From NCBI GenBank assembly GCA_937125035.1, contig CAKZLG010000067.1, forward strand, positions 1 to 52,685: DNA of 52,685 bases. The letters run 5' to 3'. The DNA is from an uncultured Maribacter sp. GTDB taxonomy: Bacteria > Bacteroidota > Bacteroidia > Flavobacteriales > Flavobacteriaceae. Of the stretch, positions 33,704 through 39,953 are shown piece by piece. Under the pieces are notes generated by a model. That model made no database searches. It had not been told where the DNA came from and saw nothing but the letters and a program-made list of their open reading frames with translations. Made by a program: the position numbers and the translations under genes. The first letter of the stretch is position 1; the number at the start of each line of letters is the position of its first letter.

Positions 33704-35515
33704 TTAGTCAAATGTATAACCATTGTCCGCAGCCACCCTGTCCGCTATTTGGGTGCGTAGGGCCACTACATTGGGGTTGTTGGTGTATTTGGTAAAACGC
33801 TTAAGGCCCATGAGCATCATGCGCTGTTCATCGCCTTCGGAAAAGGACACAATAGCTTCCTTTCCTTTTTGGATCACGGTTTCCGTGGCTCTATAGAGAA
33901 AGAGTTTGGACATGGCAATTTGGGTTGCCTGGGCTTCCTCTCCGAAACGTTTCGCATTTTTTTCGGTTCTTAAAAGGGCGGATTCCGCCAAGTAGACCTG
34001 TATGAGAATATCAGAAGCGGCCATTAACAATTGTTGGTGTTCCTCCAACTGCGGCCCAAACTTTTGAACGGCACTGCCCGCTACCATTAAAAACACTTTT
34101 TTCAGACGTTTCACCACGTCTTTTTCCTCCGCAAAAAGCTCGGAATAATCAGGCGTGTCAAAAGAGGGGATGCCCATCAATTCTTCCCCCACCGCCGTGG
34201 CTGGCCCCAAGAGGTCCACATGGCCCTTCATTGCCTTTTTCACCAGCATGCCAACGGCCAACATGCGGTTGATTTCGTTGGTGCCTTCGTAGATACGGGC
34301 AATCCTGGCATCTCTCCAAGCAGATTCCATAGGGGTGTCCGCACTGAAGCCCATTCCTCCAAAAATCTGTATGCCTTCATCGGTTGTTTGTTGTGCGTGT
34401 TCTGAAACCGCCACTTTTAGGATGGAACATTCAATGGCATATTCCTCCACGCCTTTCAGCTCAGCTTCTTGATGTGTATTGCCAGCGGCGACTCGCAAAG
34501 CAATGCGATCTTCTATGTTTTTCGCCGCGCGGTACGAAGCCGCTTCATCCACATAGACATTGGTGGCCATATCTGCGATTTTCGCCTTTATGGCTCCAAA
34601 ATTCATGATGGCCGTCTTGAACTGTATGCGTTCGTTGGCGTATTTGGTGGCTTCATCCACCACTCTGCGCTGCGCATCCAAACAGGCGGCCGCCAATTTT
34701 ATACGGCCTACGTTCAGGGCGTTCATGGCTATTTTGAATCCGTTGCCACGTTCTGAGAGCATGTTTTCAACAGGCACTTTGGTCTCGTTGAAAAAAACTT
34801 GGCGGGTAGAGGAGGAGTGTATCCCCAATTTTTTCTCTTCATCACCCAGTGTTATACCATTTTCAGGGTCGTTTTCCACTATGAAACCGGTAATGTTCTT
34901 ATCGTCCTCAATACGTGCAAAGACGATGAAAACACTGCAGAAGCCCGCATTGGAAATCCACATTTTCTGCCCGGAAATGAGGTAGTGCTTACCATCCTCT
35001 GTAAGCACCGCCTTGGTTTTGCCGGAGTTGGCATCCGAGCCAGCTCCCGGCTCCGTTAGGCAGTAGGCGCCGAACCATTCCCCAGACGCTAATTTTGGAA
35101 CGTATTTTTGCTTTTGCTCTTCGGTGCCATATAAGGTGATCGGCATGGTGCCAATGCCCGTATGTGCACCAAAGGCCGTACTGAAAGAGCCGGTTGCCCC
35201 CGAGATATAATCGCAGACCAACATGGTACTTACAAAGCCCATGCCCATGCCTCCATAGGCTTCAGGCACGGCCACGCTGAGCAAGCCCAGTTCACCGGCC
35301 TTGCGCATGCACTCCTCCGTATAGCCATAGTCTTTTTTCTCAAAACGCTCCCAGTGCGCCCAAAGTTCGCGGTCCACGAATTCCTTGGTACTTTCGCGCA
35401 TCATTCTTTGTTCCTCATTAAGGTCTTCTAGGGTAAAAACATCTTCACTCTGTGTTTCTTTTACCAAGAATTGGCCGCCGCGCAGCAATTCCTCTTTTTT
35501 GTCCATTGTTTCCAT
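33704..35515 (-). CDS. fadE: Acyl-CoA dehydrogenase, long (VLCAD-like) type
   Basis: 603 residues from the ATG at 35515 (METMDKKEELLRGGQFLVKE); another Met lies three codons on. It makes the first oxidation of beta-oxidation, acyl-CoA to trans-2-enoyl-CoA, passing electrons through FAD. Visible: CLTEPGAGSDANSGKT and WISNAGFCSVFIVFAR (FAD and substrate loops), GGMGFSADTPMESAWRDARI, and IYEGTNEINR with the catalytic Glu. A helical extension past about 440 makes it longer than medium-chain enzymes, as in VLCAD-type members. The symbol is by role and position. Last gene of the marR-fadB-fadA-fadE block, with a structured leader just upstream. Confidence 0.92.
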   Translation of the reverse strand: METMDKKEELLRGGQFLVKETQSEDVFTLEDLNEEQRMMRESTKEFVDRELWAHWERFEKKDYGYTEECMRKAGELGLLSVAVPEAYGGMGMGFVSTMLVCDYISGATGSFSTAFGAHTGIGTMPITLYGTEEQKQKYVPKLASGEWFGAYCLTEPGAGSDANSGKTKAVLTEDGKHYLISGQKMWISNAGFCSVFIVFARIEDDKNITGFIVENDPENGITLGDEEKKLGIHSSSTRQVFFNETKVPVENMLSERGNGFKIAMNALNVGRIKLAAACLDAQRRVVDEATKYANERIQFKTAIMNFGAIKAKIADMATNVYVDEAASYRAAKNIEDRIALRVAAGNTHQEAELKGVEEYAIECSILKVAVSEHAQQTTDEGIQIFGGMGFSADTPMESAWRDARIARIYEGTNEINRMLAVGMLVKKAMKGHVDLLGPATAVGEELMGIPSFDTPDYSELFAEEKDVVKRLKKVFLMVAGSAVQKFGPQLEEHQQLLMAASDILIQVYLAESALLRTEKNAKRFGEEAQATQIAMSKLFLYRATETVIQKGKEAIVSFSEGDEQRMMLMGLKRFTKYTNNPNVVALRTQIADRVAADNGYTFD

Positions 35516-35520
35516 ACGCT

Positions 35521-35581
35521 GGGCCCCTTTGTCCCCGGTGGGGAAATGCCTATTAGGGGTCAATAGGTTTTATGTGTTATT
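35521..35581 (-). repeat. Double-hairpin leader, copy B (before fadE)
   Basis: Starts 5 bp upstream of the fadE start. On the plus strand it holds TCCCC-GGT-GGGGA, then CCTAT...ATAGG around the shared core AGGGGTCAATAGG (35555-35567), then TGTTATT. It matches copy A before fadA in order and core sequence. Confidence 0.65.
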
Positions 35582-35732
35582 AAAATGGTCTTATATAATG
35601 TTTCAGGCAAATTCCTATTTTCAAATAGGTTTTGCCAGTGGTTTGTTCGGTTCGGTGTTGTTTATTTTCAAATACTATACTGTTGGTTAACAGCGGTTTA
35701 TCCTTCCTTTGGACAATGCAGCCCCAAGGGCT

Positions 35733-36923
35733 TTAGTTCAAAAACTCGAATATGCCCGCAGCACCCTGTCCTGTTCCCACGCACATGGTCACCAGGCCGT
35801 ACTTGCCCGTCATCTGGCGCTTTCGCATCTCATCAAATAACTGTGCCGATAGTTTTGCGCCGGTGCAGCCCAAGGGATGGCCCAAGGCAATTGCGCCCCC
35901 GTTCACATTCACAATGTCCGGGTTCAGGTTCAGCTCGCGCATCACTGCAAGGGATTGTGAGGCAAAGGCTTCGTTCAGTTCTATCAGTTCAATGGCATCT
36001 TGTTTTAAACCGGCCTGTTTCAAGGCTTTGGGTACTGCGGCCACGGGACCAATGCCCATGATGCGGGGCGGTACGCCTGCTGCGGCATAGTTGACCAACC
36101 TTGCAATGGGCTCCAGATTCAATTCCTTTACCATATCCTCGCTCATGATCAATACAAATGCGGCACCATCACTCATTTGTGAGGAATTGCCCGCGGTAAC
36201 ACTGCCGTTGGCGGCAAATACGGGCCTAAGCTTGGCCAAAACCTCCAACGAGGTGTCCGCCCTTGGACCTTCGTCTTTTGATACCGTATATTTTTTGGTC
36301 GCTTTTTTGCCATTGGGCCCCACATAGGTCTGCTCCACTTCAACGGGAACGATCTGATCTTGAAAGCGGTCCTCTGCTTGCGCCTTTAAGGCCTTTTGGT
36401 GGGAATCATAGGCAAACTGGTCTTGATCTTCCCTAGAGACTTTAAATTCTTGGGCCACCGCCTCCGCGGTATTGCCCATGCCCCAATAATAATCCTCATG
36501 GCCCTCTTTCACCAAGTCATAGTTCAATTCTGTTTTGTACCCTGTCATGGGTACCGCGCTCATGCTTTCAGCACCTCCTGCAATGATGCAGTTGGCCATG
36601 CCAGACTGTATTTTGGCCGTGGCCATGGCAATGGTCTCCAATCCGGAGGAGCAGAAACGGTTCACGGTAACACCGGGTACATCCACAATATCCAGTCCCA
36701 TTAAGGAAATGAGTCGCGCCATATTGAGCCCCTGTGAACCTTCCGGCATTGCATTCCCCACAATGACGTCGTCAATACGTTTTTTATCGAACTGGGGCAG
36801 CTCTTTCATCATGTACTGTATGGTCTCCGCCGCCAGCTCATCGGTTCTCGTAAAACGGAAAACTCCTTTTGGGGCTTTCCCTACTGCGGTTCTATATGCT
36901 TTTACTATGTATGCTTGTTTCAT
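35733..36923 (-). CDS. fadA: Acetyl-CoA C-acyltransferase (3-ketoacyl-CoA thiolase)
   Basis: 396 residues, the normal thiolase length. Catalytic Cys91 is in [12 protein letters not shown], His349 in [15 protein letters not shown] and Cys381 in [13 protein letters not shown]. It cleaves 3-ketoacyl-CoA with CoA to acetyl-CoA and a shortened acyl-CoA, closing the beta-oxidation cycle. It lies between fadB (136 bp upstream) and fadE (217 bp downstream). Gaps of that size inside an operon are unusual; each contains a copy of the same leader element. Confidence 0.95.
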
Positions 36924-36925
36924 AT

Positions 36926-36987
36926 GGGCCCCCTGGCCCCCCTTAGGGGGAATTCCTATCAGGGGTCAATAGGATTTTAGTTGTTAT
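36926..36987 (-). repeat. Double-hairpin leader, copy A (before fadA)
   Basis: Starts 2 bp upstream of the fadA start. On the plus strand it holds CCCCC-CTTA-GGGGG, then CCTAT...ATAGG around the core AGGGGTCAATAGG (36961-36973), then TGTTATT. Same order and spacing as copy B at 35521-35581. Confidence 0.65.
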
Positions 36988-37059
36988 TTCTAAAATTGTT
37001 CGCTGATTCCAACTTTTTCATGCGTTAAGGTTTCCACTTCCTTATGGGGTGGAGGTTTT

Positions 37060-39465
37060 TTAGTTTCGCAATGGTTTACCTGTTTTTAACATATGCTGAA
37101 TTCTTTCTAAGGTCTTACGCTCTGTACAAAGGGATAAGAAGGCCTCCCTTTCAATATCCAACAGGTATTGCTCAGAAACGTAGCTAGGTTCCGACAAGTC
37201 GCCCCCGGCCATAACATAGGCCAATTTATTTGCGATTTTTTTATCATGCTCGCTTATGTAACTGCTGGCTTCCATGGCATCCGTACCCACCAAGAACATG
37301 CCCAAAGCCTGTTTGCCCAAGACTTTGACATCTTTACGTTCCGGGGGCTTGGTATAGCCCATCTCTGACATTAGTTTGGCATGTGCCTTGGCGGTGGCAA
37401 TCTGCCTGTCTTTGTTCACAACCACAATGTCCTTTCCTTTTTGAAGGATACCCAGATCATAGGCTTCATAGGCCGAGGTGGAGACCTTGGCCATACCAAT
37501 GGTGAGAAAATATTCCTGAAGCACATTGAGTTCCACATCGCCTTTCCTGAAGGAATCGGAGGCCCGCAAGGCCATCTCCTTGGAGCCGCCCCCACCGGGA
37601 ATGACCCCTACGCCAAACTCCACCAGACCAATATAGGTTTCTGCCGCGGCCACGACCTTATCCGCATGCAAGGACAGCTCGCACCCTCCGCCAAGCGCCA
37701 TGCCATGTGGTGCCGCTACCGTGGGAATGGAGGAGTACCGCATGCGCATCATGGTATCCTGGAACATTTTAATGGCCATGTTCAATTCATCGTATTCCTG
37801 TTCCACTGCCATCATAAAGATCATGCCGATGTTGGCACCCACAGAGAAATTGGCCGCTTGGTTGCCCACTACTAGGCCTTGGAAATCCTTTTCCGCCAAA
37901 TCTATGGCTTTATTGAGCCCTGCCAGCACATCGCCCCCAATGGTATTCATTTTAGACTGGAACTCACAGTTCAGAATACCGTCTCCGAGGTCCTCTATGA
38001 CCACGCCACTGTTTTTGAAGACTTCTTTTGACTTTCTAATGTTGTCCAAAATGATGAAGGCATCCTGGCCGGGTACTTTTACCATTTCCTTTTTGGGAAT
38101 ATCGTAGTAGTAGGTATTGCCCTCTTTCACGGTGTAAAAGGCCGTGTGCCCCGCCTCTTTCATTTCTTTGACCCATGGGGCCGCTTCTTGATTTTCCGAT
38201 GCAATGAATTCCAGGCCTTTTTCCAGCCCCACGGCATCCCAAATTTGGAAGGGGCCGTGTTCCCATCCAAAACCCGCTTTCATGGCGTCATCTATCTTAT
38301 AGAGCTCATCGGTTATTTCAGGAATACGGTGCGTAACGTAGGCGAACAACTGCCCAAAGCTTTTTCTATAGAACTCCCCGGCCTTATCCTGCCCGCCTGT
38401 AAGCACTGAAAATCGATCCACCACCTTGTCAACGGTCTTTGTAAGTTCCAATGTGGCGAATTTGGCACTTTTTTTGGACCGATATTCCATGGTATCCAAA
38501 TCCAGCGTTAGAATTTCGCTATTGCCCTTATCGTCCTTTACTTTTTTGTAGAAGCCCTGTCCCGTTTTACTGCCCAACCATTTGTTCTGCATCATGGTAT
38601 CGATAAATTTGGGCAGGGAGAATAGGGCATGGCGTTCATCCTCTGTACAGTTTTCCGAAATACCATTGGCCACGTGTACCAAGGTGTCCAGCCCAACCAC
38701 ATCCACCGTACGGAAGGTAGCTGATTTTGGTCGGCCAATAACAGGTCCCGTGAGCTTGTCCACTTCCTCAACGGTCATGTTCATCTCCTTTACGGTATGG
38801 AAAAGGCTCATGATGCTAAAAATACCGATGCGGTTACCAATAAAGGCCGGGGTGTCCTTGGCCACTACAGAGGTCTTGCCCAAAAACTGTTCCCCATATC
38901 CATTGAGGAACTCCAAAACTTCCGGTTGGGTATTTGGCCCTGGAATAATCTCAAAAAGTTTAAGGTAACGCGCAGGATTGAAGAAGTGCGTACCACAGAA
39001 GTGGGACTGGAAGTCATCACTACGTCCTTCTGACATGAATTTTATGGGAATGCCCGAGGTGTTAGACGTAATCAAGGTGCCTGGCGTACGATGTTTGTCC
39101 AAGGTCTCGAATACTTGTTTTTTAATGTCCAAACGTTCCACCACCACTTCAATGATCCAATCCACATGGGCCACTTGGGCAATGTCATCCTCTAGATTTC
39201 CAGTTTGTATGCGCTGCGCGAATTTCTGATGGTAAATTGGGGAAGGCTTTGATTTTAAAGCGGCTGCCAGGGCATCGTTCACCAATCTGTTCCGGACGAC
39301 CTTATCCTGAAGGGTGAGTCCTTTTGATTTCTCCTTCTCGGTCAGTTCTCTGGGAACGATGTCCAATAACAGTACTTGGACCCCGATGTTCGCAAAATGG
39401 CAGGCAATGCCACTTCCCATAATGCCCGAACCAATAACGGCAACGTTGTTGATATGCCTTTTCAT
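37060..39465 (-). CDS. fadB: Bifunctional 3-hydroxyacyl-CoA dehydrogenase/enoyl-CoA hydratase
   Basis: 801 residues. The NAD-binding dehydrogenase half comes first (VIGSGIMGSGIACHFANIG at about 10-28, SNTSGIPI, CGTHFFNPARYLKLFEIIPG), and the crotonase-fold hydratase half follows from about 500 (ALGGGCELSLHAD, EFGVGVIPGGGGSKEMA). This order is the reverse of E. coli FadB and is usual in Bacteroidetes. It hydrates enoyl-CoA and oxidises the resulting 3-hydroxyacyl-CoA. It follows marR by 12 bp, so the regulator and this enzyme are surely one transcript. Confidence 0.95.
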   Translation of the reverse strand: MKRHINNVAVIGSGIMGSGIACHFANIGVQVLLLDIVPRELTEKEKSKGLTLQDKVVRNRLVNDALAAALKSKPSPIYHQKFAQRIQTGNLEDDIAQVAHVDWIIEVVVERLDIKKQVFETLDKHRTPGTLITSNTSGIPIKFMSEGRSDDFQSHFCGTHFFNPARYLKLFEIIPGPNTQPEVLEFLNGYGEQFLGKTSVVAKDTPAFIGNRIGIFSIMSLFHTVKEMNMTVEEVDKLTGPVIGRPKSATFRTVDVVGLDTLVHVANGISENCTEDERHALFSLPKFIDTMMQNKWLGSKTGQGFYKKVKDDKGNSEILTLDLDTMEYRSKKSAKFATLELTKTVDKVVDRFSVLTGGQDKAGEFYRKSFGQLFAYVTHRIPEITDELYKIDDAMKAGFGWEHGPFQIWDAVGLEKGLEFIASENQEAAPWVKEMKEAGHTAFYTVKEGNTYYYDIPKKEMVKVPGQDAFIILDNIRKSKEVFKNSGVVIEDLGDGILNCEFQSKMNTIGGDVLAGLNKAIDLAEKDFQGLVVGNQAANFSVGANIGMIFMMAVEQEYDELNMAIKMFQDTMMRMRYSSIPTVAAPHGMALGGGCELSLHADKVVAAAETYIGLVEFGVGVIPGGGGSKEMALRASDSFRKGDVELNVLQEYFLTIGMAKVSTSAYEAYDLGILQKGKDIVVVNKDRQIATAKAHAKLMSEMGYTKPPERKDVKVLGKQALGMFLVGTDAMEASSYISEHDKKIANKLAYVMAGGDLSEPSYVSEQYLLDIEREAFLSLCTERKTLERIQHMLKTGKPLRN

Positions 39466-39477
39466 ATACTTCCGTAA

Positions 39478-39927
39478 TTAATTAGTTGTTGTTTTTTGAT
39501 ATATCTTTTTATCAAGAATGAGCTTATTGATCGTATCCACCGTGTTGAAAAAACCAGTGAGGTCGTTTGCATCCAAATGCTCCCTGACCACTTCGTTGAA
39601 CCTAAGGACCACTTCCTTGGAATCCTTTCTTTTCTCCTGTCCCAAGTCGGTAAGGTAGATCAATACCCCACGGCCGTCTTGGGGATTTGGTTTTCTAACG
39701 ATATAGCCTTTTTCCTCCAGTCCTTTCAGTATTCTGGACAAACTGGTGGACTCCATACCCATTTTAGGCCCTAAAGAGGTACTTGGCGTACCCTTTTTTG
39801 GGTCTATACTCAGCAAGGTGAAACCAATGGCCATGGTAAGGCCATAGTTCTTTGCCTCTTCATTGTACATTTTTGTAACCGCCTGCCAAGTCGCTCGTAG
39901 GGCATAGTCAATGGTCAATTCCTTCAT
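39478..39927 (-). CDS. MarR-family transcriptional regulator of the fad block
   Basis: 149 residues from the ATG at 39927, with AGGAAG eight bases upstream; the TTG at 39948 is rejected because it overlaps the predicted -7 box. Winged helix-turn-helix: SLGPKMGMESTSLSRILKGLEEKGYI (recognition helix), then the wing RKPNPQDGRGVLIYLTDLG with the family Asp-x-Arg. N- and C-terminal helices form the dimer. First gene of marR-fadB-fadA-fadE. A perfect palindrome on its own promoter fits autorepression relieved by an acyl-CoA or fatty-acid ligand; the ligand is inference. Confidence 0.92.
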   Translation of the reverse strand: MKELTIDYALRATWQAVTKMYNEEAKNYGLTMAIGFTLLSIDPKKGTPSTSLGPKMGMESTSLSRILKGLEEKGYIVRKPNPQDGRGVLIYLTDLGQEKRKDSKEVVLRFNEVVREHLDANDLTGFFNTVDTINKLILDKKIYQKTTTN

Positions 39928-39945
39928 TCTGTTCTTCCTGTGAAC

Positions 39946-39953
39946 CAAATATA
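39946..39953 (-). promoter_or_regulatory. -7 element of the marR-fad promoter
   Basis: TATATTTG on the minus strand, an exact match to TAnnTTTG, 18 bp upstream of the marR ATG. The -33 position falls inside the palindrome at 39956-39985. Confidence 0.6.

Follow-up and report, generated by a model that had tools for sequence, protein, structure and literature searches.

The window, by which we mean the whole stretch of 52,685 nucleotides analysed here, carries on its minus strand the gene order marR - fadB - fadA - fadE. Profile scans place a MarR-family regulator (39478..39948) upstream of a fadB-type 3-hydroxyacyl-CoA dehydrogenase/enoyl-CoA hydratase gene (37060..39465) and recognize a fadE-type acyl-CoA dehydrogenase (33704..35515, scanned over 33704-35506); the gene between them (35733..36923) is assigned as fadA-type acetyl-CoA C-acyltransferase, scoring above the cut-off of subfamily TIGR01930 and below the narrow FadA models. 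A scan of the region found 2 promoter sites (shuffle mean 2.5) and 4 terminator sites (shuffle mean 2.6). Directly upstream of fadE and fadA lie two similar leaders (35521-35571 and 36927-36977, respectively), which on the minus strand, i.e. the strand of the genes, align over 51 nt without gaps at 76% identity and share the order of their parts, the 19-nt palindrome CCTATTGACCCCTRATAGG coming first, followed by a GC hairpin and then by a G-run tail. Before fadA these are the palindrome CCTATTGACCCCTGATAGG (36955..36973), the hairpin CCCCCTAAGGGGG (36938..36950) and the tail AGGGGG (36929..36934), and before fadE CCTATTGACCCCTAATAGG (35549..35567), CCCCACCGGGG (35533..35543) and AGGGG (35524..35528), all on the minus strand; palindromes were located by exact core match, palindrome search and junction alignment, hairpins and tails by reading of the sequence and alignment. 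Thus two statements of the first-pass annotation, the identity of a 13-base core (AGGGGTCAATAGG, exact at 35555-35567 and 36961-36973) and the common order and spacing of the parts, are reproduced; its placement of the hairpins 2-5 bp before the start codons needs correction, the G-run ending 5 nt before the ATG of fadA (36923-36921) and 8 nt before that of fadE (35515-35513).

Besides the parts already described, each junction possesses an inverted, degenerate left half on the minus strand just after the upstream stop codon, which is an addition to the earlier description. One of them (37027..37059), recognized by a stem from the terminator scan and by junction alignment, is located directly 3′ of the fadB stop codon (37062-37060); the other (35698..35732), assigned by eye and by junction alignment, directly 3′ of the fadA stop codon (35735-35733). 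The fadA-fadE junction also holds a third related minus-strand palindrome CCTATTTGAAAATAGG (35614..35629), found by a search for the arm pattern, which has 2 matches in the window against a shuffle mean of 0.03; it resembles an additional, decayed core. Each twin leader represents the right half of a bipartite element with inverted repeats, and in both junctions the left half has decayed.

The 19-nt palindrome occurs twice in the window if up to 3 mismatches are tolerated, a number reached in 0/100 shuffles, and in the entire genome (3.58 Mb, 92.75% complete) 2 exact copies are accompanied by 2 with 3 mismatches. Searching 397 genomes of the family with no more than 1 mismatch revealed 13 places in 11 genomes (control, 0), each of them followed by a second hairpin and then by an ATG, which belongs to fadA in eight cases, to hemB in two and to fadE, sufB and etfA in one case each; by NCBIfam models hemB and sufB exceed the cut-offs and the etfA match stays below them. 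Chance likeness of two GC-rich spacers might be suspected from their short length and from the 13-base core alone, whose 3 matches at 2 mismatches were equalled in 26/100 shuffles, yet it is ruled out by the shuffles of the complete palindrome and by the 13 places in the family, so that its probability is practically negligible.

A covariance model built from these 13 places and run over the family with stricter filters yielded 15 places at 59.7 bits or more and the next one at 43.2, the gap being partly built in, since 13 of the 15 are the model's own training rows. The two added places precede fadA and fadE of G201, representing another genus and thus a further case of twin leaders, with the arms kept and 3 loop letters changed. 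Altogether, the 15 strong copies stand before nine fadA (9 genomes of 7 genera), two fadE, one etfA, two hemB and one sufB. All of them are in the sense orientation before an ATG, at 30-34 nt from the core (42 nt for etfA). Their palindrome arms coincide in 15/15 apart from the innermost pair, and 17 of 19 core columns are invariant in 13 aligned copies, a sameness that is partly by construction because 13 of the 15 were collected at no more than 1 mismatch. At up to 2 mismatches the core was found in 0/35 other genomes of the same genus, some of which are incomplete. Homologous leaders, whose lack in close relatives, with no compensatory base changes, had been named in advance as evidence against a shared leader, are therefore missing within the genus but present across the family. 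Matches with 2-3 mismatches in this genome and its relatives were followed by a second hairpin in 0 of 31 inspected places (L028 among them, 5 places without a locus set aside). The same layout with another core stem is found elsewhere, for example in L236 and L249, and L250 has a variant core before a sufB-like gene.

On the FadA tree (113 rows) the core appears scattered, as 8 core junctions (G201 left out) need 7 changes, 6 of them forced by starred branches, against a shuffle mean of 7.8 with 78/500 shuffles as low; the sample behind these numbers is biased, core rows having been picked for the core and the others for FadA similarity, and the junction classes are defined by our own regular expressions. 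The 19 of 113 rows lacking a readable fadB-fadA junction were kept as a group of their own, and omitting them also gives 7. Identical fadA sequences were removed, and some named records duplicate other genomes.

The uniformity of the strong copies raises the question of regulation. According to one explanation the leader is a conserved cis-acting element, in which the palindrome is a putative protein site or RNA switch setting translation or internal transcription of fadA, fadE, etfA, hemB and sufB, and either the left half or CCCCT of the core may be the pairing partner of the AGGGG tail before the ATG. It draws on the sense orientation and similar distance of all 15 strong copies, on their nearly unvarying arms, on nine of 15 copies preceding fadA in 7 genera, on the twin copies of G201 and on the recurrence of the layout with another stem before other genes (L236, L249); fadA, fadE and etfA serve one pathway. 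A purine of the core and a pyrimidine of the tail also change together (A-T to G-C) in the fadA leader of this genome and the fadE leader of G201, but, again by eye, the core-tail pairing fails in this genome's fadE leader and in that of etfA. Moreover, hemB and sufB are outside beta-oxidation, and within the genus the core is confined to this genome at the tolerance given above.

Predicted RNA structure adds little to this explanation. Both leaders fold no more stably than shuffles (z -0.11 and +0.74), and the same is true of the whole fadA junction of this genome (z -0.55); of the other whole junctions folded, two whose inverted repeats are intact were much more stable than their shuffles (z -4.05 and -5.88), and three less so (z -1.00, -1.39 and -2.21). 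Covariation was counted in the core set, the stem sequences that differ between element subtypes lying outside the count: in hairpin 1, 5 of 6 pairs are invariant and 0 of 6 change on both sides, in hairpin 2 a two-sided change affects 1 of 5 pairs, and the covariation scores are reached by shuffles. Rfam gave 0 matches up to E = 1 between 33500 and 40300. A regulator devoted to fad genes only is weakened as a candidate because the core also precedes hemB, sufB and etfA. The proposal of the first-pass annotation that a shared post-transcriptional control folds around both start sites thus found no backing, given the copies before these three genes, hairpin 1 without two-sided changes, folding at shuffle level and the absence of Rfam matches. 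Some regulation by the core is nevertheless possible, since each of the 15 strong copies has the sense orientation ahead of an ATG and their arms are near-identical, and this combination is the best argument for a retained function; as an account of the leaders as a whole, we hold the cis-acting explanation to be unlikely.

The bipartite layout becomes apparent from the corresponding junctions of relatives. Both junctions, fadB-fadA and fadA-fadE, were inspected across 34 genomes of the genus including this one, 7 core-bearing genomes and 80 named loci, giving 121 loci that partly come from the same genomes. Minimal junctions (48 nt or less) number 28 for fadB-fadA and 30 for fadA-fadE, 19 and 5, respectively, being unreadable, and in the remaining ones the filler spans from stop codon to start codon. 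One type of filler has a left inverted half AGCCCCCTAACCCCCAAAGGGGGAA flush after the stop and a right half TTCCCCCTTTGGGGGTTAGGGGGCT flush before the ATG, and occupies both fad junctions of Maribacter flavus (L086); it is to this type that the leaders of the window belong as right halves. Each end of the element is a GC hairpin with a G-run tail, facing outward, and presence of the element at one given junction varies between species. The coexistence of this stop-to-start bipartite layout in some relatives with minimal junctions in others supports the reading of the leaders as remnants of an element.

Other fillers were noticed in the same junctions. The commonest one between fadB and fadA in the genus, by our own classification, is a different bipartite type with AGCTATTAGC/GCTAATAGCC-like repeats (L037-L064, L082, L083). 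Fad junctions of relatives also often hold an ORF cassette of about 430-550 nt (for example, the second junction of L090, L149 and L165 and both junctions of L098), bounded by inverted ends of approximately 7-nt repeats (GAATCAAGAATCAAGAC ... GTCTTGATTCTTGATTC), and its ORF presumably encodes an S23/IVP four-helix-bundle protein. Solo versions with ends similar to those of the cassette are exemplified by the first junction of L149.

Half-elements are spread far beyond the fad genes. In this genome the pattern CCCCN{2,6}GGGGN{2,6}AGGGG has 12 rows (11 places) against 2 in the control, some of which look genic or fortuitous. Clear cases are the junction before hisS, the metH-metF junction, where a right half precedes metF, and the cysD-cysN junction, which contains an inverted pair of halves, both within 4 nt of stop and start. 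A slightly narrower pattern gave from 4 to 70 rows per genome, overlapping rows included and places counted among the matches listed, against 0 to 2 in the control, and exceeded the control in all 11 genomes, which had been picked for carrying the core. Among 74 copies classified in fetched loci, which are not a random sample since the loci were fetched by pattern and clusters were included, nine fall within open frames and 65 between genes; the latter are located between co-directional (55), convergent (9) or divergent (1) genes, and in 21 of the 65 the tail is no more than 8 nt from the gene end it faces, one overlapping it. Half-elements are thus scattered rather than confined to fad genes, and their position beside many unrelated genes, often in inverted pairs, supports the first of the two readings in the first-pass annotation, that copies of a dispersed intergenic repeat were recruited as leaders.

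Denser arrangements were observed as well. Loci L215 and L216 (G191) contain tandem CCCCTTGAGGGGACTTTAGGGG-like units spaced by about 141 and 104 nt between co-directional genes, and L204 and L206 (G108) have dense clusters of half-elements, mostly in one orientation and with a common longer flank (ttagttcttattcatttg...). The cluster of L206/L313 surrounds a DUF559 gene; L204 has an ORF with a similar start that is absent among the DUF559 matches.

Dispersed palindromes in inverted pairs, mostly between co-directional genes, are what REP/REPIN repeats look like, and a Y1 (RAYT) transposase, which mobilizes such repeats in Escherichia and Pseudomonas, had to be considered as their mover. Y1 hits are present in 12/13 genomes, and, according to the portion of PMC6006769 available, Y1 subclass 2.6 occurs mostly in Bacteroidetes and is flanked by atypical REPs; the same portion calls the structures of these repeats weaker, whereas the hairpins here are GC-rich. 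A half-element was found within 150 or 600 nt of the Y1 gene in 0/29 loci, the only Y1 locus of this genome (L256) being incomplete and left out, and a looser pattern gave look-alikes in 2/30 loci, namely in L256 and, at a long distance from the gene, in L277. Nor was the GT[AG]G tetranucleotide recognized by eye at the foot of the hairpins, where CTAG, TTAG or CCAG mostly precedes the G-run, apart from GTAG in one likely chance match (L074). With no half-element near the 29 genes, a RAYT mobilizer is unsupported, and we consider this origin very improbable.

Another candidate was suggested by the half-element cluster of G108 (C39, L313): DUF559 was tested because the small gene surrounded by this cluster belongs to it. 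DUF559 matches were found in 19/20 genomes searched, some of them partial. Outward-facing halves within 150 nt flank 12 of 30 DUF559 loci on both sides and 15 of 30 on at least one side, and within 600 nt 15 and 19 of 30, respectively, with a background of 6/240 windows. Against a general association, 15/30 loci have no half-element within 150 nt and 11/30 none within 600 nt, including L305, where DUF559 lies in an ileS frame and no half satisfies the strict rule at either distance. Eleven of the 12 double-ended loci are situated in long open frames, identified by peptide reading as leuS (7), metH (3) and recG (1), so that perhaps only a small number of the insertions are independent; the remaining locus (L298) is within a cluster of halves in both orientations. 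NCBIfam models match leuS (L303, L284), metH (L293) and recG (L306) in separate stretches around the insert, the DUF559 domain being inserted in frame in all three genes. Of the 29 readable leuS loci of the genus (30 fetched), 5 have the insert of about 137 residues and 24 lack it; these loci are not a neutral sample, since the query itself contained the insert. Thus the DUF559 copies, not the fad leaders, show what is typical of homing, a conserved gene with or without an endonuclease domain at one fixed position.

The LeuS loop before TTRPDT (L314-L343) is an insertion hot spot, with DUF559 in 5 loci, the loop being otherwise short or occupied by other small inserts, some of which (L322, L324, L338, L333) are in frame and palindrome-like. 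The LeuS peptide of L303 contains in GPPTPKGGADAENTPSGVYG a second short in-frame insert that looks like an element copy devoid of DUF559.

The DUF559 domain inserted in leuS is similar in sequence to PDB 3hrl (7e-19) and the mobile intron protein 3r3p (9.3e-5), which we take to be I-Bth0305I, and 12 DUF559 copies have 22 invariant columns in common, including E60, D62, G63, H66 and D73. The closest tie between the two kinds of loci is the left end of the metH insert (L293), identical in 29/29 positions to the left end of the element in the fadA-fadE junction of L123, a match attained in 0/3000 background windows. Counting by eye, a DUF559 row is no more than 60 nt away for 10/150 rows of the leader model among the matches listed. 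DUF559 is present in 60/84 genomes with leader-model hits and in 83/313 others (Fisher p = 8.7e-14); the test treats related genomes as independent and is partly circular, as some of these hits are ends of DUF559 elements. Terminal inverted repeats are therefore common to junction elements and enzyme-coding copies, as expected of MITEs, the enzyme-coding copies being in other genomes. Within this genome no match to DUF559 reaches E <= 1e-15 and one partial match has 28 bits; metH there is matched in one continuous stretch without insert, and leuS is a fragment that begins at the end of a contig. A counterpart of the 19-nt core was not seen in the DUF559 copies.

Taken together, these data make it probable that the bipartite junction elements, the twin leaders included, are non-autonomous, MITE-like derivatives of the DUF559 element, and that the leaders have decayed and serve mainly as transcribed spacers. 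The DUF559 copies would be the autonomous form, spreading via cleavage by their own endonuclease; we infer both the movement of the elements and the role of the DUF559 protein as their mover from the arrangement of sequences. A non-autonomous derivative would fill the junction, beginning directly behind the upstream stop codon and ending directly ahead of the downstream start codon, each leader being its right half, and would be tolerated there because it lies between cistrons. Both copies in this genome may still slightly influence how fadA and fadE are translated or how stable their messages are. A strictly neutral element predicts something different from the sense orientation of all 15 strong copies.

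As a serious rival, the palindromic element may be older and possess its own mover, DUF559 homing endonucleases having invaded some copies and riding along like homing genes in introns. Consistent with it, half of the DUF559 loci lack ends within 150 nt, the domain resembles a mobile intron endonuclease, and the same junctions and the same leuS loop also accommodate quite different fillers; the portion of PMC9403480 consulted assigns a DUF559 gene to the EDxHD homing family. However, no other gene was found linked to these ends, the tests covering Y1 transposases and DUF559. We rate invasion of an older palindrome as rather unlikely, albeit serious. Returning to derivation from the DUF559 element, a broader generalization seems to us possible rather than probable: Flavobacteriaceae may harbor a class of hairpin-ended mobile elements driven by DUF559 (EDxHD-type), with flush operon junctions and in-frame loops of leuS, metH and recG as niches, a non-autonomous subclass of which, marked by the 19-nt core, would have been domesticated as the sense leader of beta-oxidation, ETF, heme and Suf genes, with a parallel origin or retention at fadA and fadE in no fewer than two genera.

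Palindromes scattered between the genes of bacteria are a familiar phenomenon, their best-known mover being the RAYT transposase. Here an enzyme of a different family, a homing-type endonuclease, has palindrome ends in common with such repeats and sits in frame in housekeeping genes. The DUF559 link thus gives many intergenic repeats of flavobacteria a candidate origin that can be tested, and calls for caution in taking twin hairpins for riboswitch-like leaders. Our literature search, with most subscription journals outside its reach, found no work joining DUF559 with intergenic palindromes.

Several known systems have features in common with the one considered here. Rickettsia palindromic elements (RPE) insert in frame in proteins. 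Like these elements, named in the accessible part of PMC3733652, the present ones occur both between genes and in frame inside proteins, but the in-frame copies carry a DUF559 domain between their ends, and sequences and hosts are other. With REP, BIME and REPIN repeats, as they are presented in the consulted parts of PMC6006769 and PMC3733652, they have in common that the hairpins are short, form inverted pairs facing outward and lie for the most part between co-directional genes; GTAG- and CGTC-tagged repeats are described in the latter, whereas no such tag was seen at the foot here and no Y1 transposase adjoins (0/29), the ends are often flush with stop and start codons, and one subclass has a separate 19-nt core. 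The resemblance to EDxHD/Vsr-like homing endonucleases (I-Bth0305I) consists in the matches of the leuS-insert domain to 3r3p and 3hrl, and the difference in that DUF559 is bounded here by GC-hairpin inverted repeats, no intron or intein being recognized by reading of the sequence. In a phage methylase, according to the portion of PMC11855218 available, the ShiLan domain forms an in-frame homing insertion that lacks splicing domains; it likewise keeps the frame of its host open and is linked to an endonuclease. Its HNH endonuclease, however, is read out of frame, as far as that portion describes it, whereas DUF559 is in frame with leuS, metH and recG, and similar ends recur here as dispersed intergenic repeats.
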